NCBI GenBank assembly: GCA_023419995.1
Contig: JAEZXF010000355.1
Span: 1 to 18,840, forward strand
DNA: 18,840 nt
Origin: Pseudomonadota bacterium
GTDB taxonomy: Bacteria; Pseudomonadota; Alphaproteobacteria; Rhizobiales; Rhizobiaceae
Direction: 5' to 3'
The notes beneath the pieces are model-generated. The model was not told the DNA's origin and ran no database searches. It saw only the letters and a program-made list of their open reading frames with translations. The number at the start of each line of letters is the position of its first letter. The stretch's first letter is position 1. The position numbers were made by a program, and so were the translations under genes. Shown in pieces: positions 1-17,944 of the stretch.

Positions 1-8
1 TTTGCCGG

Positions 9-38: not shown

Positions 39-50
39 TGGCGTGCTCTT

Positions 51-824
51 TCAGAACTCGGCTTGCAGCGCGGCGACGATGCCGCGGACGCAGACGTCCA
101 GCAGGATCTCGCCCTTCTCGCGCGACGCCCGCTTCGGCGACGAGAGCGTGCCGCTCGCCGGCGTCCAGTCGGGCTTGGGAGGGTAGACGTCGTAGGGCGG
201 AAAGCTCGCCGGCTCGTGATCGACCGCGCGCTCGAGGTGGACCAGATGCGGGTGGAGCGCCAGCATCAGCGACGTCTCGAGAACGCCGCCATGCTCGATC
301 TCCCAGCCCGGGAAGCCGTCGGGATAGAGCCTCGCGATCGTCTCCTTGTCGACGAAGTCCCAGTAGGACAGGACGACGATCTTCATCGTGTCGATCCCGT
401 CCCAGCGCAGTTCCCGCAACGCGAGGTCGATGGCCTCGACGATGAACCACGAATTCTCGAAATGGCCGTTGACCAGGCAGATGTTGCGCACGCCGTGCCG
501 CGCGAACTCCTTGATCACGTCGCGCAGCGCCGCGACCAGGGTGGCGCCGTCGAGGCTGGTGGTGCCGGGCAGGTGGTTGCCGCCGCCCGACTTCTGGTGG
601 GACTTGTAGCCGTAGGTGAAGGGCGGGGCGACCAGCGCGCCGATCGCGCCCGCGGTGCGCCGCGCGAACTCCATGGGCAGCAGCACGTCGACATGCATGG
701 GCATGTGGCATCCGTGCTGCTCCATCGAGCCGATCGGCACGAGGATCGGCACCGCGCCGTCTCGAACCCTGGCGTCGTAGTCGGGCCACGGCAGTTCGGC
801 GGCGAACACGGTATCGGCTGGCAT
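51..824 (-). CDS. crnA: Creatininase (creatinine amidohydrolase)
   Basis: This 257-residue protein is predicted to open the creatinine ring reversibly to give creatine in the cytoplasm. It carries the metal-site signature of the family: Glu35-Gln-His37 with Asp46, and NGHFEN with His121 and Glu123. These match the Glu34/His36/Asp45/His120/Glu122 pattern I recall for the Pseudomonas putida enzyme. The two active-site tryptophans (Trp155, Trp174), His178 and Glu183 (EHGGVLETS) are also present, as is the GGGNHLPGTTSLDGAT block. The wider creatininase superfamily (for example MftE-like proteins) usually has NGHGGN instead of NGHxEN, so true creatininase is favoured. The start at 824 is preferred because GGGAG lies 6 nt upstream; an in-frame ATG at 830 abuts that site. 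The gene is divergent from a LysR regulator. No creatinase gene is present to carry creatine on to sarcosine. Confidence 0.92.
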   Translation of the reverse strand: MPADTVFAAELPWPDYDARVRDGAVPILVPIGSMEQHGCHMPMHVDVLLPMEFARRTAGAIGALVAPPFTYGYKSHQKSGGGNHLPGTTSLDGATLVAALRDVIKEFARHGVRNICLVNGHFENSWFIVEAIDLALRELRWDGIDTMKIVVLSYWDFVDKETIARLYPDGFPGWEIEHGGVLETSLMLALHPHLVHLERAVDHEPASFPPYDVYPPKPDWTPASGTLSSPKRASREKGEILLDVCVRGIVAALQAEF

Positions 825-879
825 CGTCATCTCCCATTCCTGATGGTGGAACGGGCAGGATTGATGAGCGCACCGAGAT

Positions 880-901
880 ATGAGAAATTTATAATCTTCA
901 T
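880..901. promoter_or_regulatory. Candidate LysR operator/promoter between crnA and lysR-type gene
   Basis: The 100-bp divergent intergenic region (825-924) contains an AT-rich island in otherwise GC-rich DNA. Imperfect arms ATGAGAA (880-886) and TCTTCAT (895-901) flank it, and it includes a perfect TATAAT (890-895) suitable as the -10 box of the regulator gene, with no good -35. LysR-type proteins commonly bind such dyads in divergent regions, activating the neighbour and repressing themselves. The block AAATTTATAATC resembles the AAATTATGATAATC found downstream of the regulator (1855-1868), which supports shared binding. Function is inferred. Confidence 0.4.
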
Positions 902-924
902 CCTCGCATGAGGAATCGAAATCC

Positions 925-1839
925 ATGCGTAACATCACGAATTTCCAGACGGATCTGCTGCGCACCTTCGTTTCGGTGATCGACCTCGGCGCCTACACCA
1001 GGGCCGGCGAGGCGCTGGGGCGGACGCAGCCCGCCATCTCCCTTCAGATACGCCGGCTGGAGGAACTGGTCGGCGCGCCGATCATCCGGCAGGCCGGGCG
1101 GACGCTGCTCCTGACCAGCGAGGGCGAGATGCTCCTGAGCTACGCCCGCGAGATCCTGCGCCTCAACGACGAGGCGGCCTCCTACTTCAACCGCTCGAAG
1201 ATCGCCGGCGTGATACGCGTCGGCCTGCCCAACGACTACGCGGTCGCGTTCCTGCAGGGGGTGATCACCGAATACACGCGCCAGCACCCGGAGATATCGC
1301 TCGAGCTGCATTGCGGATGGAGCGCCGAGATCCTCGACCGGCTGCGCGCCGACGAGCTCGATCTGGCGGTGGCGATGGTCAACAACGAGCGCGCGCAGTA
1401 CCTTTCGCGCTCGTGGATAGAGCGTCCCATCTGGGCGGTGGCCGAGGGCGCGTCCTTCGATCCGGCTGCGAGCATTCCCCTTGCTGCCCATCCGGAGGGC
1501 TGCGCCTACCGGGCGCGGATGATCCAGGCGCTCGACAATGCGCGCATGCGCTGGCGCATCGCCTATACCGGCCCGGGCATCGGCGGCCTGCAGAACGCCG
1601 TGGTGAACGGCCTCGGGGTGAGCGCGCTGACGCGCTATACGATGCTTCCGGGCATGCGCATGCTCGACGAGAAGGACGGCTTCCCGCCGCTGACGGAGAT
1701 ACGCGTCGGCCTGTTCTACAAGCATCCGCGCCTGTCGGACGCCGGCATCCGGCTGGTCAATCACGTGATCGCGCGGCTGGACGAGGCCGGGACCACCCCG
1801 GACCGGACGCGGCGGCAGGTCGAGCTCGACCGGCAATAA
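925..1839 (+). CDS. LysR-family transcriptional regulator
   Basis: A 304-residue LysR-type regulator. Residues about 7-66 form the winged helix-turn-helix (FVSVIDLGAYTRAGEALGRT, then QPAISLQIRRLEELVG). Residues about 92-290 form a periplasmic-binding-protein-like effector domain beginning at GVIRVGLPNDYA. The length is normal for the family. The start is ATG 925, with AGGAA 9 nt upstream. It is divergent from the creatininase gene and lies 92 bp upstream of an ABC importer operon on the same strand, so it probably controls both. The effector could be creatinine, creatine or a downstream product, but the sequence alone cannot decide this. AT-rich palindromes on both sides of the gene are the likely binding sites. 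Confidence 0.9.
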   Translation: MRNITNFQTDLLRTFVSVIDLGAYTRAGEALGRTQPAISLQIRRLEELVGAPIIRQAGRTLLLTSEGEMLLSYAREILRLNDEAASYFNRSKIAGVIRVGLPNDYAVAFLQGVITEYTRQHPEISLELHCGWSAEILDRLRADELDLAVAMVNNERAQYLSRSWIERPIWAVAEGASFDPAASIPLAAHPEGCAYRARMIQALDNARMRWRIAYTGPGIGGLQNAVVNGLGVSALTRYTMLPGMRMLDEKDGFPPLTEIRVGLFYKHPRLSDAGIRLVNHVIARLDEAGTTPDRTRRQVELDRQ

Positions 1840-1845
1840 GCGTCG

Positions 1846-1883
1846 CAAATGCAAAAATTATGATAATCAATTTTTCAAATGCA
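1846..1883. promoter_or_regulatory. AT-rich palindrome inside a 30-bp-spaced direct repeat, upstream of importer operon
   Basis: Two perfect copies of CAAATGCA (1846-1853 and 1876-1883) lie 30 bp apart, close to three helical turns. Between them is an inverted repeat AAAAATT (1853-1859) / AATTTTT (1869-1875), centred on the small palindrome ATTAT-G-ATAAT (1857-1867). A T-N11-A pattern typical of LysR boxes (T1858, A1870) falls within it. It occupies most of the 92-bp gap before the binding-protein gene and is the strongest operator/promoter candidate for the importer operon. The repeats are seen directly; their function is inferred. Confidence 0.5.
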
Positions 1884-1931
1884 GCCGCTGTTCATACCCT
1901 TTCGAACGTCCAAAAAGAAAAGGGGAACTCC

Positions 1932-3065
1932 ATGGCTATCGACGATACTGGTGCGAAGTCGCGAACCCGACGCGAAATCCTGAAGGGCGCAAGCATTCTC
2001 GGCGGCGGGGTGCTCTCGATGCCCTATCTCAGCCGCCTTGCCTTCGCGCAGCCGGTCGAGCTCAACATGCTCGCCTGGTACGGCCATGCCGAGCCGGATG
2101 TGGTGGCCGAGTTCGAGGCCGAGAACAACGTCCGGTTCAGGCCGAAATACTATACCGGCGGCGACAACATGCTGGGCCTGATTGCCCAGTCCCCGCCCGG
2201 AACCTTCGACGTCATCCTCTCCGACGCCGAATACGTGCAGCAGCTCAACGCGGCCGGCTACATCGAGGAGCTCGCGCCCGAGGACTATCCCTTCGACGAC
2301 TATTTCCCCGAGTTCCAGAACTTCGCCGGCCACTGGCAGGACGGCAGGCTCTACTCGGTCTTCACCCGCTTCGGCTTCCTCGGCGTCGCCTACAACACCG
2401 ATGCGCTCACCGAGAAGGAGGCGTCGACCTACAACGTCTACTGGGACGAGCGGTTCAAGGGCAAGGTCGGGCATTTCGACTGGCACCTGCCGAATCTCGG
2501 CCAGCTCAGCCTGCTGAACGGCAACGCCTCGCCCTACGACATCGACGACGCCGCATGGGCCGCGCTGCGCGAGCGCACGGGAACGCTGCGGCCGCAGATC
2601 GGCGGCTTCTTCGACTATGGCGGCACCTTCTCGTCGCTGCAGAACGGCCAGATGCTGGTCATGGCCGGCATCGGCGACTGGATCACCGGCGCGCTGGAGA
2701 GGGACGGCGCCAAGGTCCGCAGCGTGATCCCGGAGGAGGGCGGCCTGCAATGGACCGAGTCCTTCTCGATCGGCAAGGGCTCCGCCAAGGCCGATCTGGC
2801 GAAGAAATGGATCCAGTACATCACCTCCGCCAGGGGGCAGGTGAAGTCCGCTAACATGGCCGCCTATCCCGCGCTCATCCCGAACAGCAAGGGATGGGAG
2901 CTGCTGGCGCAGGAGACGCCCGAGGAAGCGAAGCGGCAGGGCATGCTCCTCACCGAGAGCAACGCCATGGACCTGATCCGCGCCGGGCGCATCAAGTTCC
3001 GGCAGCTGCCGGTCCAGCAGGACCTTGAGGACTGGAACGATTTCTGGTCCGACTACAAGGGCTAG
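1932..3065 (+). CDS. ABC transporter substrate-binding protein (PotD-like, Tat-exported)
   Basis: A 377-residue periplasmic extracellular solute-binding protein of the spermidine/putrescine (PotD/PotF) type. The N-terminus carries a twin-arginine signal (TRREILKGASILGGG, with Arg13-Arg14). A hydrophobic stretch follows, and a probable signal-peptidase site lies after Ala39 (AFA before QP). The mature part opens with ELNMLAWYGHAEPDVVAEFE and ends in a helical segment typical of the family. The start at ATG 1932 is supported by AGGGG 6 nt upstream, so the long upstream in-frame extension overlapping the LysR gene is spurious. It heads a binding protein-permease-permease-ATPase operon. Because the operon sits beside creatininase and sarcosine oxidase genes, the ligand may be creatinine, creatine or another methylated amine rather than a polyamine; this is inference. 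Confidence 0.9.
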   Translation: MAIDDTGAKSRTRREILKGASILGGGVLSMPYLSRLAFAQPVELNMLAWYGHAEPDVVAEFEAENNVRFRPKYYTGGDNMLGLIAQSPPGTFDVILSDAEYVQQLNAAGYIEELAPEDYPFDDYFPEFQNFAGHWQDGRLYSVFTRFGFLGVAYNTDALTEKEASTYNVYWDERFKGKVGHFDWHLPNLGQLSLLNGNASPYDIDDAAWAALRERTGTLRPQIGGFFDYGGTFSSLQNGQMLVMAGIGDWITGALERDGAKVRSVIPEEGGLQWTESFSIGKGSAKADLAKKWIQYITSARGQVKSANMAAYPALIPNSKGWELLAQETPEEAKRQGMLLTESNAMDLIRAGRIKFRQLPVQQDLEDWNDFWSDYKG

Positions 3066-3073
3066 TGACCGGG

Positions 3074-3099
3074 GAGGCGGATGCCGGGTCGTCCGCCTC
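3074..3099 (+). other. Intercistronic stem-loop after the binding-protein gene
   Basis: Perfect 8-bp arms GAGGCGGA (3074-3081) and TCCGCCTC (3092-3099) enclose a 10-nt loop, beginning 8 nt after the stop of the binding-protein gene. No U tract follows, so it is more likely an mRNA-stabilising or partial-termination element than a full terminator. Such hairpins are known in ABC operons, where the binding protein is made in excess over the membrane parts. A second, shorter hairpin (GCGGAA 3122-3127 / TTCCGC 3138-3143) follows before the permease ribosome-binding site. Confidence 0.5.
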
Positions 3100-3160
3100 G
3101 TCCTTCCTGACAGCGAGCGCCGCGGAACGCCCTTCGTTTCCGCTGACGGAGTATGCCGCC

Positions 3161-4006
3161 ATGCGCAAGACGATCACGCTCTACGGTATGACGTTCTCGT
3201 TGCCGATGCTGGTGTGGCAGGCGGTGTTCTTCCTCGCGCCGCTGCTGTTCCTGATCGCGCTCAGCTTCTGGTCGGTCCGGAACTTCCGGATAGAGCCGGA
3301 TTTCAACCCCGACAACTGGACGAGGATGCTCGGCCGCGAGATCTTCTGGAGCGCCTATTTCAGGACGCTGCTGCTGTCCGCCTCGGCTGCCGCCCTCACC
3401 AGCGCGCTCGCCTTTCCCTGCGCCTACGCCATCGCCTTCAAGCTGTCGGAGACCGCCCGCCGCTGGGCGATATTCCTCATGGTGATACCCTTCTTCACCA
3501 GCTATCTGGTGCGTGTCTATTCGTGGCAGATCTTCCTGTCGGACAACGGCATCATCAACGCGCTGCTGGCGCAGGCGGGGTTCGGCCCGCTCGGCATGCT
3601 CAATTCCGTCTTCGGGCTGATGATCGGCTATCTCACGCTCTGCTTCCCGCTGGTCGTGCTACTGCAGCTTTTCAGCCTGCTGTTCGTCGACCGCACGCTG
3701 ATCGAGGCGGCGCACAACCTGCATTGCGGGCGGCTGCGCACGGTGTTCGAGGTCGTCGTGCCGTCGGCAAAGGTCGGCCTCGTGATCGCGGCCCTGTTCT
3801 GCTTCATCCTCACCTTCGGCGATTTCGTCAGCCCGCTCTATCTGGGCGGCGGCAATCCGCCGACCCTGTCGATCCTGATCACCGACACGACCAAGTCCGG
3901 CCAGCAGTGGCCGCGGGCCGCCGTGGTCGCCCTGGTGATGATCGCGACCCTGCTTTGCGTGGCGTTCGCCGCGGTGAGCTATGCCTACCGGGAGCGCGGG
4001 CGATGA
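3161..4006 (+). CDS. ABC transporter permease (PotB-like)
   Basis: A 281-residue inner-membrane permease of the binding-protein-dependent family. Hydrophobic segments lie at about 12-38, 66-92, 101-120, 147-175, 203-222 and 252-275. The cytoplasmic EAA loop, which contacts the ATPase, begins at Glu182 (IEAAHNLHCGRLRTVF). The usual EAA-x-x-L-G glycine is replaced by His188-Cys189, a mild oddity. I chose ATG 3161 because GGAG (3148-3151) lies 9 nt upstream and the hydrophobic N-terminus then starts at the normal place. An in-frame GTG at 3065 would add 32 non-hydrophobic residues running through the intercistronic hairpins. The end overlaps the next permease gene by an ATGA. Confidence 0.9.
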   Translation: MRKTITLYGMTFSLPMLVWQAVFFLAPLLFLIALSFWSVRNFRIEPDFNPDNWTRMLGREIFWSAYFRTLLLSASAAALTSALAFPCAYAIAFKLSETARRWAIFLMVIPFFTSYLVRVYSWQIFLSDNGIINALLAQAGFGPLGMLNSVFGLMIGYLTLCFPLVVLLQLFSLLFVDRTLIEAAHNLHCGRLRTVFEVVVPSAKVGLVIAALFCFILTFGDFVSPLYLGGGNPPTLSILITDTTKSGQQWPRAAVVALVMIATLLCVAFAAVSYAYRERGR

Positions 4007-4824
4007 ACGAATTCAACCGCAATCCGCTGATCGACTGGGCGCTGCGGCTCTACGTCGTGCTCGCGTTCGGCTTCGTCTTCGCGCCGATCGCCGCGAGCTT
4101 CGTGTTCTCCCTCAACGTCGACCGCTTCCCCTCGCTGCCGCTCGGCGGCTTCTCCACCGTCTGGTACGAAGCGGTCTACAACGACCCGCTGATCTGGGAA
4201 GGCCTGCGCAACACGCTCGTCGCCGGCGTCGTCGTCTCGGTGCTGGCGACGGCGATCGGCTTCGGCGCCGCCTACACCGATTTCCGCTACAGGTTCCTCG
4301 GCAAGTCCTTCTACGTGGCGCTCGCCCTGCTGCCGCCGACCATCCCGGTCGTCATCCTGGGCCTGGCCATGCTGGCGTTCCTGTCCAATGTCGGCCTGTC
4401 GGGCGAGCTGCACGCGGTCATCATCGCCCATGTGGTGATGTGCGCTCCGTTCGCCATGGCGATCATCCGCCTTCGGCTGTCGCAGATGGACCCGTCGCTG
4501 GAAGCCGCGGCGTGGAACCTCGGGGCCTCGGAATGGAAGGCGATGCGCCACGTCATCCTGCCTTTCTGCCGGCCCGCGATCTTCGCCGCGCTGTTCATCA
4601 CCATGGCGGTGTCGTTCGACGAGTTCGCGGTCGCCTGGTTCGTGTCCGGGCTGAACGAGACGCTGCCGGTGAAGGTGCTCGGCTTCCTGCAGGGGCAGGT
4701 CAGCCCCCGCATCAACGTCATCGGCACCTTCGTCTTCCTCACCTCGATGACGCTGGTCATCGTCGCCCAGCTTCTCCTGATGAAACGCAGCGCCGCCCCG
4801 AAGGCGGACGCAAGAGCGGAGTGA
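4003..4824 (+). CDS. ABC transporter permease (PotC-like)
   Basis: A 273-residue second permease of the same importer. It has an N-terminal membrane segment (about 12-37), further hydrophobic stretches at about 72-92, 103-128, 138-156, 190-207 and 236-260, and a canonical EAA loop (EAAAWNLGASEWKAM, residues 167-181, with Gly174) followed by HVILPFCRPAI. PotC-type proteins pair with PotB-type proteins to form the heterodimeric channel. Its start overlaps the upstream stop (ATGA at 4003-4006), which implies translational coupling. Its own stop overlaps the first possible ATG of the ATPase gene (TGATG). Confidence 0.91.
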   Translation: MNEFNRNPLIDWALRLYVVLAFGFVFAPIAASFVFSLNVDRFPSLPLGGFSTVWYEAVYNDPLIWEGLRNTLVAGVVVSVLATAIGFGAAYTDFRYRFLGKSFYVALALLPPTIPVVILGLAMLAFLSNVGLSGELHAVIIAHVVMCAPFAMAIIRLRLSQMDPSLEAAAWNLGASEWKAMRHVILPFCRPAIFAALFITMAVSFDEFAVAWFVSGLNETLPVKVLGFLQGQVSPRINVIGTFVFLTSMTLVIVAQLLLMKRSAAPKADARAE

Positions 4825-4829
4825 TGCGC

Positions 4830-5921
4830 ATGTCCGGTGAAGCACTCGTCGTCTTCGACGGCGTGATCAAGAGGTTCGGCGAGTTCGTCGCCGTCGAGCG
4901 GCTGAACCTCGACATCCGCAAGGGCGAGTTCCTCGCCATCATGGGCTCCAGCGGCTGCGGCAAGACCACCACGCTCAGGATGCTGGCCGGCCTCGAAGCC
5001 CCCAGCGAAGGCGAGATCCGGCTGGCGGGCAGGCGGATCAACGACCTGCCGACGTGGAAGCGCGACACGCCGATGGTCTGGCAGAGCCTGGCGCTGTTCC
5101 CGTTCCTCACCGTGCGCGAGAACGTGGAGTTCGGCCTGCGCATGCGCGGGATCGACAAGGCGGAGCGCAGCCGGCGGGTCGACACCTGGCTGGAGCGGAT
5201 GCAGATCGCCGAGTTCGCGCAGCGCAACGTCGCCCACCTTTCCGGGGGGCAGCGCCAGCGCGTCGCGCTCGCCCGCTCCCTCGTCACCGAGCCGGAGATC
5301 CTGCTACTCGACGAGCCTTTGTCCGCCCTGGACGCGCATCTCAAGGTGCGGATGCAGACGGTGCTGTCGAACCTGCAGAGGGAGCTCGGCATCACCTTCG
5401 TCTATGTCACGCACAGCCAGTCGGAAGCGTTCTCGATGGCCGACCGCGTCGTCATCATGAGCCGCGGGCGGATCGAGCAGATCGGCAGGCCGCAGGAGAT
5501 TTACCGGGCTCCGCGGACACGGTTCGTCGCCGAGTTCCTCGGCTCGTCCAACATATTCGCCGGGCGTGTCTCCTCGCTCGAGGACGGCACCGTCCGGATA
5601 GCGACGCCCGCCGGCGAGTTCGGCGTCTCCCGCGGCACGTCCAAGCCCCTCGCCAGCGGCGACAGCGCCACCTTCGTGGTCTCCGACGATCACATGCAGC
5701 TCAGCAACCGGCAGCCCGCCGGCGGCAACGCGGTTCGCGCGTCCGTGGTCGGCGAGGAGTTCGTCGGCGCGACCGCCGTCATCCACCTCGAAGGCGCGGG
5801 AGGCATCGAGCTGAAGGCCCAGAAGAGCCATGCCGAGATCGCGCAGCTCGACCTGACGCCCGGCGCCGACATATGGGTGTCGTGGCAGATGGAAGCGGGA
5901 CACATCCTGCCGGGCGAGTAA
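4830..5921 (+). CDS. ABC transporter ATP-binding protein (PotA-like)
   Basis: A 363-residue ATPase that would power the importer from the cytoplasmic side. It has the Walker A motif GSSGCGKT (39-46), Q-loop in MVWQSLALFPF, signature LSGGQRQR (from 137), Walker B LLLDEP with Asp161-Glu162, and switch histidine in VYVTHSQSEAFSMADR. A C-terminal TOBE-type regulatory region (about 250-360) is typical of the PotA/MalK subgroup. ATG 4830 is preferred because GGAG lies 8 nt upstream; the in-frame ATG at 4824 sits only 2 nt from it and would add two residues. It is the last gene of the importer operon and converges on the GlxA-type regulator with only 13 bp between the two stops, and no terminator is visible there. 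Confidence 0.93.
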   Translation: MSGEALVVFDGVIKRFGEFVAVERLNLDIRKGEFLAIMGSSGCGKTTTLRMLAGLEAPSEGEIRLAGRRINDLPTWKRDTPMVWQSLALFPFLTVRENVEFGLRMRGIDKAERSRRVDTWLERMQIAEFAQRNVAHLSGGQRQRVALARSLVTEPEILLLDEPLSALDAHLKVRMQTVLSNLQRELGITFVYVTHSQSEAFSMADRVVIMSRGRIEQIGRPQEIYRAPRTRFVAEFLGSSNIFAGRVSSLEDGTVRIATPAGEFGVSRGTSKPLASGDSATFVVSDDHMQLSNRQPAGGNAVRASVVGEEFVGATAVIHLEGAGGIELKAQKSHAEIAQLDLTPGADIWVSWQMEAGHILPGE

Positions 5922-5934
5922 CCACCGCGCCCGC

Positions 5935-6936
5935 CTAGCCGGGGCTGCGGAAAGCCGCCGGCGTCATGCCGCGGCGCTCCCGGAACGCCCGGATGAAGTG
6001 GGAGGAATCGCAGAAGCCGGTCGAGGTCGCGATCTCCGTCACCGACTGCGGCGTGTGCCGGAGCAGGAACTCGGCGTATTCGAGCCGCATGATCTTGCAG
6101 GCCAGCGTCGGCGCCATGCCGATCGTGCGCTGGAAATGGCGCTCGAGGCGCCGCCGGCTGACGCCGAGCCGGCGGGCAAGCTCGGCCACCGGCAGGGGCG
6201 TGTCGATGTGCTGCTGCATGATCAGCAGCGCGCGCCGGACCATCGCGTCGTCCGTGGTCAGATCGAGCGGAATGCCGGGCTGGGGCTTCTCCGCGCGCAG
6301 GGCGTCGTCGATGATCATGATGTGCAGGCTCTTGCGCGCCTGCGCGCGCCCGACATGCCTGTCGACCAGATAGGCGGCCAGATGCGCCGAGCTCGCGCCG
6401 CCGGAACAGGTGAGCCGGTCGCGGTCGACGATGAAGATCTGGTCCGAGACCGGCCGCAGGCCGTCGAACTGCTCCAGGAAGTCGGCATGGTGGAACCAGC
6501 TCACGCAGCAGCGGTAGCCGTCCATCAGCCCGGCCCTGTGCAGGATGAAGGCGCCGGTGCAGACGCCGACGAGCGGCACCTTCAGCGCCGCCGCGCGCTG
6601 CAGATAGCGCGTGTATTCGGGGCTGAGATTGGGGATCTCGTCGATCAGGCCGCCGACCACGACGATGTAGTCGAACTTCCCCGGGTCGCCGAGCCGCTCG
6701 CCGGGCTGGACCGTCACCCCGCAGCTCGATGCCATCGGGCTCATCGTGTCGGACAACACGCTCCACTCGCACAGGATCGGCCTGCTGCGGTCGCCCTCGT
6801 CGGCGGCCAGCCGCAGCACGTCGACGAAGTTGGCGAAGGCGCAGAGCGTGAAGCGCCGCGCGAGGATGAAGCCGACGGACAGCCTCGGCGCCGCCTTCCG
6901 TATCCGGATCTGTCCTGCGCTGACATGCGTGTCCAT
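5935..6936 (-). CDS. GlxA-family regulator (DJ-1/PfpI domain plus AraC HTH), SouR-like
   Basis: A 333-residue two-domain regulator. Residues about 18-190 form a DJ-1/PfpI-like (GATase1-like) sensor domain, with the nucleophile-elbow Cys126 in VGVCTGAFILHRAGLMDG. Residues about 232-330 form the AraC/XylS DNA-binding domain with two helix-turn-helix units (VAELARRLGVSRRRLERHF and VTEIATSTGFCDSSHFIRAF). The start at 6936 has AGGGG 5 nt upstream. It is divergent from soxB, like members of this family that control glycine betaine, carnitine and sarcosine catabolism (GbdR, CdhR and SouR in Pseudomonas). By context it most likely activates the sox operon in response to sarcosine or a related compound. 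The effector assignment is inference from family and position. Confidence 0.9.
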   Translation of the reverse strand: MDTHVSAGQIRIRKAAPRLSVGFILARRFTLCAFANFVDVLRLAADEGDRSRPILCEWSVLSDTMSPMASSCGVTVQPGERLGDPGKFDYIVVVGGLIDEIPNLSPEYTRYLQRAAALKVPLVGVCTGAFILHRAGLMDGYRCCVSWFHHADFLEQFDGLRPVSDQIFIVDRDRLTCSGGASSAHLAAYLVDRHVGRAQARKSLHIMIIDDALRAEKPQPGIPLDLTTDDAMVRRALLIMQQHIDTPLPVAELARRLGVSRRRLERHFQRTIGMAPTLACKIMRLEYAEFLLRHTPQSVTEIATSTGFCDSSHFIRAFRERRGMTPAAFRSPG

Positions 6937-6967
6937 CGGTTCCCCTTCGGCGAAGTGTCGCTCAGGT

Positions 6968-6997
6968 AATATCGAACTGACGCATCCGTTCTGTCCA
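6968..6997 (-). promoter_or_regulatory. Possible promoter for the GlxA-type regulator
   Basis: Reading the minus strand, TGGACA (6997-6992) is followed after 18 nt by GATATT (6973-6968), a fair match to sigma-70 -35/-10 boxes. The inferred transcript would begin about 25 nt before the start codon at 6936. Spacing is slightly long and the -10 is imperfect, so this is tentative. Confidence 0.3.
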
Positions 6998-7021
6998 GAG
7001 GGCAGGGCCGGTTCTAGTAGT

Positions 7022-7042
7022 CCACGAACGATCAATTCGTGG
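7022..7042. promoter_or_regulatory. Perfect inverted repeat immediately upstream of soxB
   Basis: CCACGAA (7022-7028) and TTCGTGG (7036-7042) form a perfect 7-bp inverted repeat with a 7-bp spacer, ending 8 nt before the soxB start codon at 7051. As DNA it could be an operator in the regulator/soxB divergent region. As RNA it would place a hairpin against the soxB ribosome-binding site and could modulate translation. No other strong dyad is visible in the 114-bp gap. The function is unproven. Confidence 0.45.
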
Positions 7043-7050
7043 GTGAAGCC

Positions 7051-8304
7051 ATGACCCGTTTCTCGTTCGCCTCGCTTCTGATGAACGCCGCGACCGGCCA
7101 CCGGAACTGGGAGCCGCAATGGCCCGACAGCCAGCCCAAGGCCGAATACGACGTGGTCGTCGTCGGCGCCGGCGGACACGGCCTCGGCGCGGCCTATTAT
7201 CTGGCGAAGGAGCACGGCATCACCAATGTCGCGGTCATCGACAAGGGCTGGCTCGGCGGCGGCAACACCGGCCGCAACACCACCATCATCCGCTCCAACT
7301 ACCTCTATGACGAGAGCGCGCGGCTCTACGACCACGCGGTCGACCTGTGGGAAGGGCTGTCGCAGGAGCTGAACTACAACGTCATGTACTCGCGCCGCGG
7401 CGTGATGATGCTGGCCCACACCGTGCACGACGTGCAGAGCTTCAAGCGCCACATCCACGCCAACCGGCTGAACGGCGTCGACAACCGCTGGCTGACGAAG
7501 GAAGAGGCCAAGGCCTACTGCCCGCCGCTCGATATCTCGCCGACCGCGCGCTATCCGGTGATGGGTGCGGCGTTGCAGGAGCGCGCCGGCACCGCGCGCC
7601 ACGACGCCGTCGCTTGGGGCTATGCGCGGGCGGCCGCCGCGCGCGGCGGCGACATCATCCAGAACTGCCCGGTGACGGCGATCCGCCGCAATGCCGACGG
7701 CACGGTCGCCGGCGTCGAGACGGCGCGGGGCTTCATCAGGGCGAAGAAGGTCGCCGTCTCCGCCGCCGGTCACACCTCCGTCGTCATGGACAGCGCGGGC
7801 GTGCGGCTGCCGCTCGAAAGCTACCCGCTCCAGGCGCTGGTGTCGGAGCCGGTCAAGCCGGTCTTCCCCTGCGTGGTGATGTCGAACGCGGTCCACGCCT
7901 ATATCAGCCAGTCCGACAAGGGCGAGCTGGTGATCGGCTCCGGCACCGACCAGTACACGTCCTATTCGCAGCGCGGCGGCCTGCCGCTGATCGAGCACAC
8001 CATCGCCGCCATCGTCGAGATCTTCCCGATCTTCAACCGCATGCGCATGCTGCGCAAATGGGGCGGCATCGTCGATGTCACCCCCGACCGCTCCGCGATC
8101 CTCGGCAAGACGCCGGTTCCGGGGCTTTACGTCAATTGCGGCTGGGGCACCGGCGGCTTCAAGGCGACGCCCGGTGCGGCGCACACCTTCGCCTGGACCA
8201 TCGCCAGGGACGAACCGCACCCGATCAACGCGCCGTTCACGCTCGAACGCTTCCGCACCGGCCGGCTGATCGACGAGGCCGCCGCCGCCGCCGTGGCGCA
8301 CTGA
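7051..8304 (+). CDS. soxB: Sarcosine oxidase subunit beta
   Basis: A 417-residue flavoprotein subunit, the usual length for beta subunits of heterotetrameric sarcosine oxidase. With its partners it demethylates sarcosine to glycine, forming H2O2 and 5,10-methylene-THF. The FAD-binding Rossmann motif [20 protein letters not shown] starts near residue 36. The conserved [14 protein letters not shown] block follows. His184 in [11 protein letters not shown] corresponds by context to the histidine that covalently holds FMN in characterised enzymes. The start ATG 7051 matches family N-termini ([11 protein letters not shown]...); a GTG at 7039 lies inside the inverted repeat and is less likely. The Shine-Dalgarno is weak (GGGTGA, 7041-7046). 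It is the first gene of a soxBDAG-glyA-sdaA-purU run. Confidence 0.95.
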
Positions 8305-8314
8305 GGATCACGTC

Positions 8315-8629
8315 ATGCTTCTTATCCATTGCCCGTACTGCAATGAGACGCTGCCGGAGGCGGAGTTCACCTATGCCGGGCAGGCGCATGTCGCGCGCGC
8401 CGCCGACCCCTCGTCGCAGACCGACGAGGAATGGGAGGCGTTCCTGTTCATTCGCGACAACGCGAAGGGACCGCATTACGAGCGCTGGCGGCACTTCCAC
8501 GGCTGCGGCCGCTTCTTCAACGCCGTGCGCGACACGGTCAGCGACCGCTTTCTTGCGACCTACAAGGCGGGCGAGGCGCGGCCCGACCTCGCCTCGCTGC
8601 CGGCTGCATCCGGGGAGGTGCTGAAATGA
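8315..8629 (+). CDS. soxD: Sarcosine oxidase subunit delta
   Basis: A 104-residue small subunit. It contains the zinc-binding set Cys6-x2-Cys9 (HCPYC) and His60-x3-Cys64 (HFHGC), which in known heterotetramers binds a structural zinc ion. It has no separate catalytic role in the family and stabilises the complex. GAGG lies 8 nt before the start. The gene begins 10 nt after soxB, and its stop overlaps the soxA start (ATGA at 8626-8629), so the subunits are translationally coupled in the standard B-D-A-G order. Confidence 0.94.
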   Translation: MLLIHCPYCNETLPEAEFTYAGQAHVARAADPSSQTDEEWEAFLFIRDNAKGPHYERWRHFHGCGRFFNAVRDTVSDRFLATYKAGEARPDLASLPAASGEVLK

Positions 8630-11616
8630 GCCGCTATCGCGTTCCGGGCCGCGGCCGGGTCGACACCGCGCGCGCCGTCTCCTTCACCTTCGACGGCCGG
8701 ACCTATAAGGGCGCGGCGGGCGATACGGTCGCGTCGGCGCTGCTCGCCAACGGCGTCCACCTGATGGGCCGCTCGTTCAAGTACCACCGCCCGCGCGGGA
8801 CCATCACTGCCGGCTCCGAGGAGCCCAACGCGCTGATCGGCACCCGCCGCGGCCCTGGCCGCTTCGAGCCCAACACCCGCGCCACGGTGCAGGAGATCTG
8901 GAACGGGCTCGAGGCCACCTCGCAGAACCGCTATCCGAGCCTGAAGTTCGACGTCGGCGCCGTCAACGACGCGGCCTACATGCTGTTCTCGGCCGGCTTC
9001 TACTACAAGACCTTCATGTGGCCGAAGAGCTTCTGGAACAAGGTCTACGAGCCCTTCATCCGCGCCGCCGCCGGCCTCGGCATCTCGCCGCGCGAGAAGG
9101 ACCCCGATGCCTACGCCTCGCGCTACCTGCATTGCGACGTGCTGGTCGTCGGTGCTGGCCCCGCCGGCCTCGCCGCGGCGCGCGCGGCGGCCGTCGACGG
9201 GCTGAAGGTCGTCGTCGTCGACGAGAACGCGGAAGCCGGCGGCACGCTGCTTTCCGAGCCGCAGGCGCTGATCTCCGGCCGCCCGGCCTGGGACTGGCTG
9301 GAGGACGAACTCGCGGCGCTGAAGGCGCTCGGCGTCACCGTCATGACCCGCACCACGGCCATCGCCTATTACCACCAGAACATGATCGGTCTCGCCGAGC
9401 GGCTGACCGACCATCTGGAAACCCTTCCCGCCGACATGCCGCGCGAGCGGCTGTGGCGGGTGCGGGCGCGCCGCGTCGTGCTGGCGCAGGGCGCGCTGGA
9501 AAAGCCGCTGGTGTTCCACGGCAACGACCGGCCGGGCGTCATGCTGGCGGGCGCCGCGCAGACCTATTTGAATCGCTACGGCGTCAAGGTCGGCGACCGG
9601 CCGGTCGCCGTCACCAACCACGACAGCGCCTGGCATGCCGCCTTCGACCTTCAGAGCGCCGGCGCGCGCATTCAGGCGATCGTCGATACCCGCGCAAATG
9701 TCCGCGAGGCGCTGGCGAACGAGGCGCGGGCGCTCGGCATCCCGGTCCTGCTGTCGCACACCGTGACGGCGACCTCGGGGCGGCTGCGCGTCGCCTCGAT
9801 CCGTGTCAACCCGGTCGAGGGCGGCAGGGTCGGTGCGGGGCGGGCGATCGCCTGCGACGCGGTGCTGATGTCGGGTGGCTGGACGCCGTCGCTGCATCTG
9901 TTCTCGCACACGCAGGGCAAGCTCGCCTGGGACGAGGAGCGCGCCACTTTCCTTCCGGCGCGGACAAACGAGGATTGTGCCATCGCCGGGGCCGGGCGCG
10001 GCCTGTGGGGCATCGAGGCGGCGCTGAGGGACGGCGCGGAGCGCGGCCGCGAAGCGGCGGAAGCGCTCGGCAAGAAGGGCGCGTCGGCGAGCCACGCGGT
10101 CGAGCACGATCGCCCCGGAACCGGCGTCTCGCACACCGAGCTGCCCACCGACCGCAATCCCGGCAGGGCCAAGGCCTTCGTCGACTACCAGAACGACGTC
10201 ACCGCCAAGGACCTGCGGCTGGCCGTGCGCGAGGGCATGCGCTCGATCGAGCACGTCAAGCGCTACACCACCAACGGCATGGCGACCGACCAGGGCAAGA
10301 TGTCGAACGTCAACGGCCTGAACATCGCCGCCGACGCGCTCGGCAAGCCGACGCCGCAAGTCGGGCTGACCACCTTCCGCCCACCCTATACGCCGACTAC
10401 CTTCGGTGCCTTCGCCGGCTACCACCGCGGCGACCATTTCGAGGTCACGCGCAGGACGCGGATCGATGCGTGGGCCGAGGCGCACGGCGCGGCGTTCGAG
10501 CCGGTCGGCCAGTGGCGCAGGGCGTGGTACTTCCCGAAGCCCGGCGAGGACATGGACGCCGCCGTCGCGCGCGAATGCCGCGCGGTGCGGGAGAGCGTCG
10601 GCATCTTCGACGCCTCGACGCTCGGCAAGATCGAGGTCGTCGGCCCCGATGCGGTCGAGTTCATGAACCGCATGTACACCAACCCGTGGACCAAGCTCGC
10701 GCCCGGGCGCTGCCGCTACGGCCTGCTGCTCGGCGACGACGGTTTCATCCGCGACGACGGCGTCATCGGCCGCATGGCCGAGGACCGCTTCCACGTCACC
10801 ACCACCACCGGGGGTGCTGCGCGGGTGATGAACATGATGGAGGACTACCTCCAGACCGAGTGGCCCGAGCTGAAGGTGTGGCTGACCTCGACCACCGAGC
10901 AGTGGTCGACCGTGGCGCTGAACGGCCCGAACGCGGCGAAGCTGCTCGCGCCGCTGGTCGAGGGCGTCGAGCTGACCGAGGACGCCTTCCCGCACATGTC
11001 GTGCGTGGAATGCACGGTGGCCGGCATGCCGGCGCGCCTGTTCCGCGTCAGCTTCACCGGCGAGACCGGATTCGAGGTCAACGTGCCCGCGCCGCTCGGC
11101 CACCGGCTGTGGGAGATCCTGTGGGAGGCCGGCCAGCCATACGGCATCGTCGCCTACGGCACCGAGGCCATGCACGTCCTGCGCGCCGAGAAGGGCTACA
11201 TCATCGTCGGCCAGGACACCGACGGCACGGTCACGCCCTACGATGCCGGCATGGGCTGGGCCGTGGGCAAGGCCAAGCCGGACTTCGTCGGCAAGCGCGG
11301 CCTCGCCCGCCCGGACCTCGTCGCGAAGAACCGCAGGCACCTGGTCGGGTTGCTGACCGAGGACGGCTCGAAGCTGGAGGAGGGGGCGCAGATCGTCTTC
11401 GACCCGAAGCAGCCGGTGCCGATGACGATGGTGGGGCACGTCACCTCCTCCTATCGCTCCGACGCGATGGGCCGGCCGATCGCGCTGGCGCTGGTCGAGG
11501 GCGGGCACGAGCGGATGGGCGAGACCGTCCATATCCCGATGCCAGACCGCACCATTGCCGCCACGATCACCGGGACCGTGTTCGTCGATCCCGAAAACGC
11601 CCGCCTGAAGATCTGA
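8626..11616 (+). CDS. soxA: Sarcosine oxidase subunit alpha
   Basis: A 996-residue alpha subunit of normal length. The N-terminal region (about 15-75, VSFTFDGRTYKGAAGDTVAS) resembles the 2Fe-2S-like fold of amine-oxidising dehydrogenases but lacks a cysteine cluster, as expected. A second Rossmann fold (VLVVGAGPAG, glycines from residue 176) binds NAD+. The C-terminal part, from about residue 630, is a GcvT/aminomethyltransferase-like domain that binds THF and captures the methyl-derived carbon as 5,10-methylene-THF. It includes GETGFEVNVPA and the EKGYIIVGQDTDGTVTP block. A very long open frame lies antisense to it but is a composition shadow. It overlaps soxD by 4 nt and is followed by soxG after 14 nt. 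Confidence 0.96.
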   Translation: MSRYRVPGRGRVDTARAVSFTFDGRTYKGAAGDTVASALLANGVHLMGRSFKYHRPRGTITAGSEEPNALIGTRRGPGRFEPNTRATVQEIWNGLEATSQNRYPSLKFDVGAVNDAAYMLFSAGFYYKTFMWPKSFWNKVYEPFIRAAAGLGISPREKDPDAYASRYLHCDVLVVGAGPAGLAAARAAAVDGLKVVVVDENAEAGGTLLSEPQALISGRPAWDWLEDELAALKALGVTVMTRTTAIAYYHQNMIGLAERLTDHLETLPADMPRERLWRVRARRVVLAQGALEKPLVFHGNDRPGVMLAGAAQTYLNRYGVKVGDRPVAVTNHDSAWHAAFDLQSAGARIQAIVDTRANVREALANEARALGIPVLLSHTVTATSGRLRVASIRVNPVEGGRVGAGRAIACDAVLMSGGWTPSLHLFSHTQGKLAWDEERATFLPARTNEDCAIAGAGRGLWGIEAALRDGAERGREAAEALGKKGASASHAVEHDRPGTGVSHTELPTDRNPGRAKAFVDYQNDVTAKDLRLAVREGMRSIEHVKRYTTNGMATDQGKMSNVNGLNIAADALGKPTPQVGLTTFRPPYTPTTFGAFAGYHRGDHFEVTRRTRIDAWAEAHGAAFEPVGQWRRAWYFPKPGEDMDAAVARECRAVRESVGIFDASTLGKIEVVGPDAVEFMNRMYTNPWTKLAPGRCRYGLLLGDDGFIRDDGVIGRMAEDRFHVTTTTGGAARVMNMMEDYLQTEWPELKVWLTSTTEQWSTVALNGPNAAKLLAPLVEGVELTEDAFPHMSCVECTVAGMPARLFRVSFTGETGFEVNVPAPLGHRLWEILWEAGQPYGIVAYGTEAMHVLRAEKGYIIVGQDTDGTVTPYDAGMGWAVGKAKPDFVGKRGLARPDLVAKNRRHLVGLLTEDGSKLEEGAQIVFDPKQPVPMTMVGHVTSSYRSDAMGRPIALALVEGGHERMGETVHIPMPDRTIAATITGTVFVDPENARLKI

Positions 11617-11630
11617 CCCCGGAGGCGATG

Positions 11631-12185
11631 ATGAGCATCGAGATTTCTTCACTGATCCCCGGCGTCGTGGCCGAGACGGCCGCCGCGCGGGTCGGCGTCC
11701 TCGCCGCGCCGGGGCGGCTGTCGCTTCGCGCCCGCGGGGACCTCGCCGCGCTCGACAAGGCGCTCGGCCTTGCCCTGCCGGATCGCATCGGCAAGCGCGC
11801 CGAAGCCGGCGGGATCGAGGCAATCCGGCTCGGGCCGGACGAATGGACGATCCTTGCCCCGGCTGACGCAGTTGCCGGACTGGCTGCCGCCTGCGCCGCC
11901 GTCTATGGCGAGCACCCGCACAGCCTCGTCGACATTTCCGGGCGCGAGGTCACGCTTTCGATCGACGGGCCGAGGGCGGCGGAGCTGCTGACGCTCGGCT
12001 GCCCGCGCGACATCGAGACGATCGCGCTCGGCGAAGGCCGCAGGACGGTCTTCGACGGGGCGACGGTCGTGCTGTGGCGCGACGCGCCGGATCGCTTCCG
12101 CATGGATGTCTGGAACAGCTTCGCGGCCCATGTCGCGCATCTGCTCGAAACCGGCTGCAGGGAACTTGCCGCCGAACACGCCTGA
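11631..12185 (+). CDS. soxG: Sarcosine oxidase subunit gamma
   Basis: A 184-residue gamma subunit (family range about 180-210), distantly related to the GcvT fold. It assembles with SoxA, SoxB and SoxD. Recognisable family features include [29 protein letters not shown] and the C-terminal [18 protein letters not shown]. Tandem ATGs occur at 11628 and 11631; the second is preferred because GGAGG (11621-11625) lies 5 nt upstream of it and only 2 nt from the first. glyA starts 20 nt after the stop. Confidence 0.93.
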
Positions 12186-12205
12186 CCGCCGAAAGGACCG
12201 TCCCC

Positions 12206-13474
12206 ATGCCCGACAGTTTCCCCAGGACCACGGTGTCCGACCCAGTGATCGCCGCTGCCATCGCGCAGGAACTCGACCGCCAGAAGACCCAGATCGAGCT
12301 GATCGCCTCGGAGAACATCGTCTCCGCCGACGTGCTGGCCGCGCAGGGGTCGGTGCTGACCAACAAGTATGCCGAGGGCTATCCCGGCAAGCGCTACTAC
12401 GGCGGCTGCGAGTTCGTGGACAAGGTGGAGGAGGTGGCGATCGACCGGCTGAAGCGGCTCTTCGGCGCGGAATTCGCCAACGTGCAGCCGCATTCGGGCG
12501 CGCAGGCCAACCAGGCGGTGCTGCTGGCGCTGCTCCAGCCGGGCGACCGCATCATGGGCCTGTCGCTGGCGCATGGCGGCCACCTGACGCACGGCTCACC
12601 GGTGACGATGTCGGGCAAGTGGTTCGACGTGGTCTCCTACGAGGTCGATCCCGATACCCACCTGATCGACATGGACAAGGTGCGCGAGAAGGCGCTGGAG
12701 ACGAAGCCGAAGCTGATCATCGCCGGCGCCTCGGCCTATCCGCGCCGGATCGACTTCGCCGGGTTCCGCAGGATCGCCGACGAGGTCGGCGCGTATCTGA
12801 TGGTCGACATGGCCCATTACGCCGGGTTGGTCGCGGGCGGGGCCTATCCGAACCCGGTGCCGCATGCCCACGTCACCACCTCGACCACCCACAAGACGCT
12901 GCGCGGCCCGCGCGGCGGCGTCATCCTCACCAACGACGCGGACCTGGCCAAGAAGCTGAACTCCGCCGTCTTCCCCGGCAACCAGGGCGGACCGCTGATG
13001 CATGTCATCGCCGCCAAGGCCGTCGCCTTCGGCGAGGCGCTGCAGCCGGAGTTCAGGGACTATGCACGCCGGGTCGTCGCCAATGCGCAGGCGCTGGCGA
13101 ACGTGCTGAACGAGGGCGGCCTCGGCATCGTCTCGGGCGGTACCGACAGCCACATCGTCCTCGTCGACCTGCGCCCCAAGGGCGTCACCGGCAAGGTCGC
13201 CGAGATCGTGCTGGAGCGCGCCGGCCTGACCTGCAACAAGAACGCCATCCCCAACGATCCGGAGAAGCCGTTCGTGACCTCCGGCATCCGGCTCGGCAGC
13301 TCGGCGGGCACGACGCGCGGCTTCGGCGAGGCCGAGTTCGAGAAGGTCGGCGCCCTGATCCTGCGCGTCCTCGACGCCCTGTCGCAGGCTCCGGACGGCG
13401 ACGCGGCGGTGGAGGCCGAGGTGCGCGGCGAGGTGCGGGCGCTGTGCGAGGCCTTTCCGATCTACGGATCGTGA
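12206..13474 (+). CDS. glyA: Serine hydroxymethyltransferase
   Basis: A 422-residue PLP enzyme that interconverts glycine plus 5,10-methylene-THF and serine plus THF. The cofactor lysine is Lys230 in [15 protein letters not shown]. Other family blocks are [35 protein letters not shown] and [19 protein letters not shown] lies 8 nt before the start. Its place between soxG and sdaA indicates work in the serine-forming direction, because sarcosine oxidase produces both substrates in a 1:1 ratio. It may be a catabolic paralogue with the housekeeping glyA elsewhere, which cannot be seen here. Confidence 0.96.
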
Positions 13475-13477
13475 AAA

Positions 13478-14875
13478 ATGTTCCTGTCGGTCTTCGACAT
13501 CTTCAAGATCGGCATCGGCCCGTCGTCGTCCCATACGATGGGGCCGATGGTCGCCGCTTCGCGGTTCCTCGGCGATCTTCGCGGCGGCGTCGACAAGATC
13601 CCCGGGGCCGGCGAGCTGTTCCGGCTGGGGGCGAGCCTGCACGGCTCGCTCGCCTTCACGGGAAAGGGGGATGCGACGGACCGGGCCGTGATCCTCGGGC
13701 TCTGCGGCCTGCTGCCCGAGACGCTCGATCCCGACCGGGCGGAGGAGATCGAGGCGCGGGTGCGCGAGGGCGGCCTGGTCGAGCCCGAAGGGCTGCCGGC
13801 GCTGCGCTTCGACCCCGACAGGGATCTGGTCTTCGACTACGGCCCGCCCCTGCCTGGCCATCCCAACGGGCTGGTCCTGAAGGCCTACGACCGGGCGGGA
13901 AACACCTGGCACCAGCAGACCTACTATTCGACCGGCGGCGGCTTCGTGGTGACGGAAGCGGAGCTGGGCGCGCCTGCCGATGCCGGCCCGGCCGGCGGGC
14001 GGCCGGCCGTGCCCTATCCCTTCCGCAATGCCGGGGAAATGCTGCGGATGGGGCGCGCCTCGGGAAAGTCGATCGCCCGGATGAAGCGGACGAACGAGGA
14101 GGCGATCCACGGGGCGGATCTCGACGCCCGGCTTGACCGGGTGTGGGAGGTCATGGACGGCTGCATCCGGCGCGGCCTCACCCGGGAGGGCATCCTGCCG
14201 GGCGGGCTGAAGGTGAGGCGCAGGGCGAAGGCCATTCACGACCAGTTGCAGGCCGAGCGCGGCCGGAATCTCAGCCAGCCGCACCAGGCCAACGACTGGA
14301 TGAGCGTCTACGCCATGGCGGTGAACGAGGAGAACGCCGCCGGCGGGCGCGTGGTGACCTCGCCCACCAACGGCGCGGCCGGCGTGGTGCCGGCGGTGGC
14401 GCGCTACTATCTCGACCATTGCGTCGGCGCGAAGCGCGAGGGGATCCGCGACCTGCTGCTCACCGCCGCCGCGATCGGCGGGCTGATCAAGCACAACGCG
14501 TCGATCTCGGGGGCCGAGGTCGGCTGCCAAGGCGAGGTCGGGTCGGCCTCGGCGATGGCGGCGGCCGGCCTCTGCGCCGTGCTCGGCGGGACCAACGAGC
14601 AGATCGAGAACGCGGCCGAAATCGCGCTCGAGCACCATCTCGGCATGACCTGCGACCCGGCCGCCGGCCTTGTGCAGGTGCCCTGCATCGAGAGGAACGC
14701 GCTCGGCGCGATCAAGGCGGTGTCGGCCGCGAGCTTGGCGCTGAGAGGCGACGGGACGCATTTCATGCCGCTCGACAACTGCATCAGGGTGATGCGCGAG
14801 ACCGGCCGCGACATGGACGCGAAGTACAAGGAAACCTCGCAGGGCGGCATCGCCGTCAACCTGCCCGAGTGCTGA
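13478..14875 (+). CDS. sdaA: L-serine ammonia-lyase, iron-sulfur-dependent, single-chain
   Basis: A 465-residue fused alpha/beta enzyme that converts serine to pyruvate and ammonia. The N-terminal SDH_beta-type domain begins with [19 protein letters not shown]. The C-terminal catalytic domain carries the 4Fe-4S ligands Cys350 (GCQGEVG), Cys392 (TCDPAAG) and Cys403 (VPCIERN). The last residue is Cys465. The cysteine spacings (42, 11 and 62) equal those I recall for the Legionella type 2 enzyme, whose C-terminal cysteine ligates the cluster when no substrate is bound. The start is only 3 nt after the glyA stop with no strong Shine-Dalgarno, so translation is probably coupled. Confidence 0.95.
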
Positions 14876-14897
14876 TCGCGGGAAGGAGGGGACGTTG

Positions 14898-15779
14898 GTG
14901 ACCTACGTGATGAAGGTGTCGTGCCCGGCGCGCATCGGGATCGTCGCGGCCGTCTCGGGATACCTGGCCCGTGCCGGATGCAACATCACCGACAGCTCGC
15001 AGTTCATCGACCACGAAACCGGCCGCTTCTTCATGCGGCTGGGCTTCGAGCCGGCGCCGGGACTGGAGCGCGAGGCACTGGCCGAGGGCTTTGCCCCGGT
15101 CGCGCGCGATTTCGACATGGACCACGAGATCCACGACCTGTCGCGGAAGACGAAGGTCGCGATCATGGTCTCGCGCTTCGGCCATTGCCTGAACGACCTT
15201 CTCTACCGCTCGCGCATCGGCGCGCTGCCGGTCGAGATCGTCGCGGTGATCTCCAATCATCTCGACTGCCGGAAGCCGGTGGTCAACGAGGACATCCCCT
15301 TCCACCACATCCCGGTCTCGCCCGAGGCCAAGCTCCGGGCCGAAGCCGGGATCCTCGGCGTGATCCAGGATTCCGGCGCGCAGCTCGTCGTCCTCGCGCG
15401 CTACATGCAGGTGCTGTCGGACCGGATGTGCAGCGAGATGTCGGGGCGCATCATCAACATCCACCATTCCTTCCTGCCCAGCTTCAAGGGGGCGAACCCC
15501 TACAAGCAGGCCTACGAGCGCGGCGTCCGCCTGATCGGGGCGACGGCGCACTACGTCACGGCCGATCTCGACGAAGGCCCGATCATCGAGCAGGACATCA
15601 TCCGCGTCACTCACGCGCAGAGCGCGGCGGATTATGTCAGCCTCGGCCGCGACGTCGAAAGCCAGGTCCTGGCGCGCGCCGTCCATGCGCACATCCATCA
15701 CCGCGTCTTCCTCAACGGCAACAAGACGGTGGTCTTCCCGGCCTCTCCCGGCGAATACGTCTCGGAGCGCATGGGCTGA
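14898..15779 (+). CDS. purU: Formyltetrahydrofolate deformylase
   Basis: A 293-residue enzyme that hydrolyses 10-formyl-THF to formate and THF. An N-terminal ACT domain (about 1-80, YVMKVSCPARIGIVAAVSGY) is followed by a formyltransferase-fold domain. The catalytic triad is Asn187 and His189 (NIHHSFLPSF) plus Asp225 (DLDEGPII), with the same Asn-Asp spacing as glycinamide ribonucleotide transformylase. GTG 14898 is preferred, 8 nt after AAGGAGG; TTG 14895, 5 nt away, would add one residue, and the first ATG (14910) is too far. PurU homologues often accompany sox genes, where they restore free THF when methylene-THF accumulates. No ATG start and no folD nearby are worth noting. Confidence 0.94.
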   Translation: MTYVMKVSCPARIGIVAAVSGYLARAGCNITDSSQFIDHETGRFFMRLGFEPAPGLEREALAEGFAPVARDFDMDHEIHDLSRKTKVAIMVSRFGHCLNDLLYRSRIGALPVEIVAVISNHLDCRKPVVNEDIPFHHIPVSPEAKLRAEAGILGVIQDSGAQLVVLARYMQVLSDRMCSEMSGRIINIHHSFLPSFKGANPYKQAYERGVRLIGATAHYVTADLDEGPIIEQDIIRVTHAQSAADYVSLGRDVESQVLARAVHAHIHHRVFLNGNKTVVFPASPGEYVSERMG

Positions 15780-17936: not shown

Positions 17937-17944
17937 CGCCGCGC

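Follow-up and report, generated by a model that had tools for sequence, protein, structure and literature searches.

Creatininase and creatinase are established enzymes that yield sarcosine and urea, and the sarcosine oxidase SoxBDAG, serine hydroxymethyltransferase, the L-serine ammonia-lyase SdaA and the formyltetrahydrofolate deformylase PurU are established enzymes that lead from sarcosine to pyruvate with recycling of folate. Pseudomonads have glyA-soxBDAG-purU operons, and in Arthrobacter sp. TE1826 the genes for creatininase, creatinase and sarcosine oxidase reportedly lie together with a transporter gene (a cluster said to have been described by Nishiya in 1998), the oxidase there being, again by report, monomeric and the transporter a single protein. 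The subject of this work is an 18,840-nucleotide stretch (hereafter the window) of a Rhizobiaceae contig (JAEZXF010000355.1, assembly GCA_023419995.1), which carries a creatininase gene, a LysR-family regulator divergent from it, a four-gene ATP-binding cassette (ABC) importer and the genes soxBDAG, glyA, sdaA and purU. It resembles the pseudomonad operons in leading from sarcosine to serine with folate recycling, to which it adds the creatininase/importer module, and it differs from the reported Arthrobacter cluster in having the heterotetrameric SoxBDAG and an ABC importer. Judging from the neighbourhoods of related loci, it is highly probable that the window is most of a standard creatinine-degradation island, whose creatinase gene would be found immediately left of position 1 and probably convergent with the creatininase.

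A further comparison is offered by PMC8864220, which treats creatinine and creatine genes in Corynebacterium, among them crnA-creT and cshA/hyuB of C. glutamicum ATCC 14067. The likeness lies in the coupling of a creatininase to a dedicated transporter, whereas CreT is a putative major-facilitator protein required for growth on creatine and not on creatinine, and the strain is unlike the best reading of the window in having no creatinase and in being under AmtR control. A legend in the same source places a heterotetrameric sarcosine oxidase in the creatine/creatinine clusters of P. putida, Arthrobacter sp. AQ5-05 and R. denitrificans OCh114.

Two Mesorhizobium plasmids, NZ_AP023248.1 (MesoLj131a2) and NZ_CP083953.1 (pB2-1-8), match 98% of window positions 1–8000 at about 80% DNA identity (over positions 75–8000) and, by annotation, share with the window the genes, their order and their strands from creatininase through L-serine ammonia-lyase. 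Next to the creatininase on its left, both carry a gene annotated as an M24 'metallopeptidase', the products being 86 and 88% identical to the creatinase of another relative (L002) discussed below. They differ from the window at both ends. Further left (L081 3633–10140, L082 3574–10061), they have a second creatinase paralogue (67% identical; 632 bits to the structure 7yto and 621 to 1chm) with its own LysR gene and a second ABC importer, a set that is possibly a creatine-specific module; after sdaA, where the window has purU, they have genes for a LysR protein, an isochorismatase and hydantoinase A/B (L081 26966–31959, L082 26952–31973), the latter enzymes suggesting a candidate N-methylhydantoin/N-carbamoylsarcosine route. 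More broadly, a contig scan with the window's creatininase gave 118 relatives, the best 80 of which were taken with flanks of up to 10 kb; soxB is in view at 15 of these 80 loci, in several arrangements, and in Microvirga purU, glyA, sdaA, soxG and soxA adjoin the importer. Such repeated joining of the modules, in differing orders, speaks for a common function.

A probable creatinase beside the creatininase

The original prediction had described a creatinine-to-pyruvate island with its creatinase step missing. As to the window itself this was borne out: a relative's creatinase used as query found two matches there, both at chance level (E 3.6 and 3.8), so the absence from the window is real. 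As a description of the pathway, the phrase is most likely misleading, since the window ends 50 bases past the creatininase stop and most relatives carry the creatinase just past that place. Most of the 80 loci belong to named alphaproteobacterial genomes, and some to metagenome-assembled genomes labelled just Proteobacteria or Pseudomonadota; tblastn detected a creatinase-type gene in 74 of the stretches, and in 71 one lies within 2 kb of the creatininase. Sixty-four loci have the layout of the window, i.e., the creatininase divergent from the LysR gene and the importer, and in 59 of these the creatinase lies within 2 kb downstream of the creatininase (57 convergent, 2 on the same strand), which is the side past the window's left edge. 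In a second layout (12 loci), with the importer on the other side, the creatinase lies upstream in nine. The gap between creatininase and creatinase, taken over 57 convergent cases that were picked by a best-hit rule and overlap with, without being identical to, the 57 convergent loci just named, runs from 40 to 1394 bases with a median of 131 and exceeds 50 bases in 53; thus, a window ending where this one does would nearly always miss the creatinase. These patterns fit the first of the options that had been offered for the gap, a creatinase just left of position 1, and on them depends our placing of a creatinase in this particular genome, which is predicted from the neighbourhoods of its relatives. 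The 'missing step' very probably results from where the window was cut.

The identity of the neighbour in the relatives is clear from comparison with solved structures. The protein of L002 scores 915.8, 707.3 and 589.5 bits against the creatine amidinohydrolases 7yto, 1kp0 and 1chm, and its next structure, a dipeptidase, scores 70.5 bits; by these alignments, it is classed as a canonical creatinase and not a prolidase. What we take to be the catalytic motifs of creatinase occur in most of the 71 neighbours: GAHNP with its histidine in 67, LERT and SMEP with their glutamates in 65 and 67, and FGR with its arginine in 66. Some of the neighbours are truncated, the one in L010 is split, and that in L044 is just about 55% identical. 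The split gene, on a Mesorhizobium sophorae contig, lies in two separate pieces (L010 12617–13838), suggesting a frame break or an assembly error. Records with a creatinase-type gene in a plasmid collection include 264 from Klebsiella and 102 from Acinetobacter; identity to the L002 creatinase is about 62% for those Acinetobacter copies that were listed, and none of the 60 listed records is from Klebsiella.

Two further features of the locus bear on this placement. The first 50 bases of the window fold into a G+C-rich hairpin (4..42) flanked by A- and T-runs just past the creatininase stop (−31.4 kcal/mol on the plus and −27.0 on the minus strand, z about −4.2, none of 200 shuffles as good), which suits a candidate two-way terminator between convergent genes; visual inspection of 30 intergenic ends showed a G+C hairpin of this kind, likewise bordered by A- and T-runs, in L003, L014, L016, L020, L027 and L028. 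A urease, the likely sink for the urea that creatinase would release, was sought through its alpha subunit in 40 of the genomes behind the 80 loci, most of them from named isolates: matches were obtained in 35 (33 at E <1e-40, and two weak ones that are probably other amidohydrolases), as against 4 of 14 control genomes.

Several observations weigh against this reading of the locus or parts of it. Five loci with the window's layout lack a downstream creatinase; two of these (L018 and L033) have just 495 and 10 bases of room, so that, of the 62 that extend 500 bases or more on that side, 3 have no such neighbour (L011, L024 and L064). Among the 17 loci with a creatininase at least 84% identical to that of the window, the creatinase is downstream in 15 and not so in L011 and L018, the latter being the one with 495 bases of room. 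A consensus scan of window positions 1–2000 for terminators and promoters found no site, and the hairpin fails the terminator rule; a one-way terminator of the creatininase would look much like it, and relatives L005, L006 and L019 have no such hairpin at that place. Five of the 40 genomes, including that of Mycoplana, the best relative by creatininase, gave no urease alpha match. The best protein match to the window among the best 120 listed is 89% identical, with no near-identical record among them, and no NCBIfam cut-off is reached by any importer protein or by either regulator among the matches listed (at most 25 per protein).

That the creatinase of this genome lies elsewhere than beside the creatininase, as in a minority of relatives, we consider very unlikely. 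At 9 of the 80 loci, no creatinase was found within 2 kb, and all 12 genomes searched (those of the nine loci plus L010, L001 and L003) have a creatinase-like match somewhere. These matches are weaker evidence: four of the nine stand at 56–57% identity, that of L033 consists of fragments, that of L018 is a contig-edge piece from its own locus, and a clear orthologue on a different contig (84%) is seen for L070 alone. Set against them are the 59 of 64 loci of the same layout with the gene downstream, as well as the collinear Mesorhizobium plasmids.

Another alternative is that the creatine step is replaced, either by an unrelated enzyme or by a branch through creatinine deaminase, N-methylhydantoinase and N-carbamoylsarcosine amidase. 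An Ancylobacter plasmid, on which isochorismatase, hydantoinase A/B and nucleoside deaminase genes accompany a related importer and a creatininase with no creatinase match in 19 kb, lends this some plausibility, as do the hydantoinase and isochorismatase genes past sdaA on the Mesorhizobium plasmids. However, none of those genes was called in the window, where sdaA is followed by purU and a threonine ammonia-lyase gene; moreover, the N-methylhydantoin branch would not require a creatininase, and creatinase is present on the Mesorhizobium plasmids too. We regard such a replacement as scarcely credible here. An unrecognised enzyme for creatine hydrolysis was likewise considered and set aside, as a canonical creatinase adjoins the creatininase in most of the relatives fetched; the gap being most likely an edge effect, no such enzyme is called for. 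Three papers (PMC7848895, PMC6742649 and PMC6790972) deal with creatininase and creatinase in sponge symbionts, and PMC7848895 and PMC6790972 cite the hypothesis that a Xaa-Pro aminopeptidase could replace creatinase in archaea. Such a substitution is not needed for the present island, which is an ordinary one of a kind already established.

A proposed route from creatinine to pyruvate

The enzymes were identified by scoring the window's proteins with NCBIfam profiles against their curated cut-offs, and all the genes named are intact open frames at the positions given. The creatininase (creatinine amidohydrolase, 257 amino acids; 51..824, minus strand) reaches 366.9 bits with TIGR04448 against an equivalog cut-off of 235 and 368.5 bits to PDB 1q3k. 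It aligns to 1q3k and has EQHGCHMPMHVD at residue 35 (EQHG..D), NGHFE at 119 and GWEIEHGG at 173, motifs that presumably supply metal-ligand and catalytic residues. Its designation as a true creatininase is thus upheld, as far as profile scores and motifs can tell. Two further structures named creatinine amidohydrolase score just 51.2 and 39.5 bits against it, and identity as an MftE- or IolN-type paralogue was rejected, the scores being far under the cut-offs of both.

All four subunits of the heterotetrameric sarcosine oxidase likewise exceed their cut-offs, every gene being on the plus strand: soxB (beta subunit; 7051..8304) scores 704.1 bits with TIGR01373 against 529, and 537 bits to PDB 1vrq_B; soxD (delta; 8315..8629) scores 126.7 with TIGR01374 against 116.5; soxA (alpha; 8626..11616) scores 1598.8 with TIGR01372 against 1164; and soxG (gamma; 11628..12185) scores 167.5 with TIGR01375 against 144. 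On the same strand follow glyA for serine hydroxymethyltransferase (12206..13474; NF000586, 646.7 bits, cut-off 335), sdaA for L-serine ammonia-lyase (13478..14875; TIGR00720, 584.4 bits, cut-off 345) and purU for formyltetrahydrofolate deformylase (14895..15779; TIGR00655, 331 bits, cut-off 286). The gene list of the original prediction (creatininase, importer, two regulators, soxBDAG, glyA, sdaA and purU) stands, with every pathway enzyme passing its curated cut-off, and comparison with the relatives supports the route it had read from these genes, from creatinine through creatine, sarcosine, glycine and serine to pyruvate.

From the observed gene identities and the observed neighbourhoods of the relatives, we infer the importer's substrate, the regulation and the flux through the island as follows. 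The binding protein-dependent ABC importer would take up creatinine, which the creatininase would open to creatine, and the creatinase lying off the window would split creatine to sarcosine and urea. SoxBDAG would then produce glycine by oxidising sarcosine and hand the methyl carbon on to tetrahydrofolate; serine hydroxymethyltransferase would join glycine and methylene-tetrahydrofolate into serine; SdaA would convert serine to pyruvate and ammonia; and PurU would release formate and regenerate tetrahydrofolate. The LysR protein likely controls the creatininase and the importer, and a GlxA-type protein likely controls the sox operon.

The ABC importer and its cargo

The importer is the least-known part of the island. 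Its four plus-strand genes encode a substrate-binding protein distantly related to PotD and PotF (1932..3065; Pfam SBP_bac_8, 90.7 bits), a PotB/PotH-like permease (3158..4006; PotB model 103.9 bits, cut-off 348), a PotC-like permease (4003..4824; PotC model 148.3 bits, cut-off 326) and a PotA/PhnT2-like ATPase (4824..5921; PhnT2 335.6 bits, cut-off 457.7; PotA 330.5 bits, cut-off 482). These proteins, like the two regulators, are therefore assigned provisionally, by family resemblance. Its grouping with the creatininase, to which the original prediction had drawn attention, is not a matter of chance, for the LysR-importer-creatininase block recurs in the relatives.

A rival account is that this is an ordinary polyamine importer whose place by the creatininase has no metabolic meaning. 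Public annotation often names the binding protein spermidine/putrescine, and its distant solved relatives (e.g., PDB 4gl0, at 57 bits) are mostly polyamine binders. Yet it scores only 36.4 bits against the PotD cut-off of 582 and 24.8 against the PotF cut-off of 636, and membership of PotABCD was rejected on these scores. The company it keeps points the same way: of 22 plasmid records that encode a related binding protein, 12 have one at least 69.9% identical, and each of these has a creatininase within 6 kb, and a creatinase within 3 kb of that creatininase, as against a nearby creatininase in 2 of the 10 more distant ones. In six of the other eight distant records (all but NZ_CP123585.1 and NZ_CP071400.1), which were opened, the stretch held no creatininase at E 1e-10. 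An island in Azoarcus combines this importer with cytosine-permease and major facilitator superfamily genes, so that the importer need not carry creatinine there, and this weighs against an exclusive creatinine role. On a Paraburkholderia plasmid, the creatininase is followed by a cytosine-permease gene, with no relative of the binding protein in the stretch, and transporter genes thus appear to substitute for one another at such loci. Altogether, we hold the polyamine account to be unlikely.

The more distant relatives themselves suggest what the branch may be specialised on. Among those that have no creatininase by them, one adjoins an amidohydrolase annotated as cytosine deaminase and one a nucleoside deaminase gene. 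Two more (L095 8672–15921 and L099 8896–15758), with binding proteins 61–63% identical, have near the importer genes for an amidase, a polysaccharide deacetylase and urea-carboxylase-associated proteins, which may serve the use of some other nitrogen compound. In a further two, no gene of any of these kinds adjoins the importer. The Ancylobacter plasmid (L103 3552–13755) has a 49% relative of the binding protein among its isochorismatase, hydantoinase A/B, nucleoside deaminase and creatininase genes; urease accessory genes lie nearby. Six of the eight more distant relatives examined adjoin creatininase, hydantoinase, deaminase or amidase genes, neighbourhoods suggesting that small cyclic amidines and ureides, and not polyamines, are what this branch specialises in.

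On balance, we favour, with some reserve, a view of the four-gene importer as a distinct PotABCD-like branch dedicated to creatinine and under divergent LysR control. By genomic association, creatinine is the likelier cargo of the two, creatinine and creatine, since it is the compound common to both degradation routes; creatine, or both compounds, would also be possible. Comparison of conserved residues in the binding proteins of creatininase-linked loci (79 sequences) and others (6) gave no clear split, and no pocket is named. The literature covered has no ABC importer for creatinine beside a creatininase, which is weak evidence of absence, as subscription journals lay mostly outside that coverage and one listed paper, PMC7921472, names ABC transporters as well as creatininase.

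Regulators, flanking genes and wider meaning

The LysR-family regulator (925..1839, plus strand) has LrhA as its best NCBIfam model, at 169 bits under a cut-off of 530, and its orthologues in rhizobial loci are 78–89% identical. The 100-base divergent promoter region between it and the creatininase (825..924) contains 13 AT-rich columns at 885–922 that are conserved in at least 95% of an alignment of the window with 79 loci, and these form a candidate LysR operator. The second regulator (5935..6936, minus strand), divergent from soxB, is a GlxA-type AraC-family protein with DJ-1/PfpI and HTH_18 domains, which scores 183.7 bits with the GbdR model, below the cut-off of 480. Control by the two proteins is likely from the positions of their genes. 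No Rfam family matched anywhere in the window at gathering scores. After purU come a threonine ammonia-lyase gene (15887–17131) and, on the minus strand up to 18838 at the right end of the window, a DUF934 gene and a cut gene with a nitrite/sulphite-reductase domain; these genes (15887–18838) probably lie outside the island.

In PMC8864220, Roseobacter denitrificans OCh114 is said to use creatine without a CreT homologue. If the creatinine reading of the importer is true, this branch would be an alphaproteobacterial answer to the uptake of these compounds in bacteria that lack CreT. The importer is widely conserved; on that reading, soil and aquatic bacteria would have in it a system for creatinine uptake, and many spermidine/putrescine annotations would need correction.

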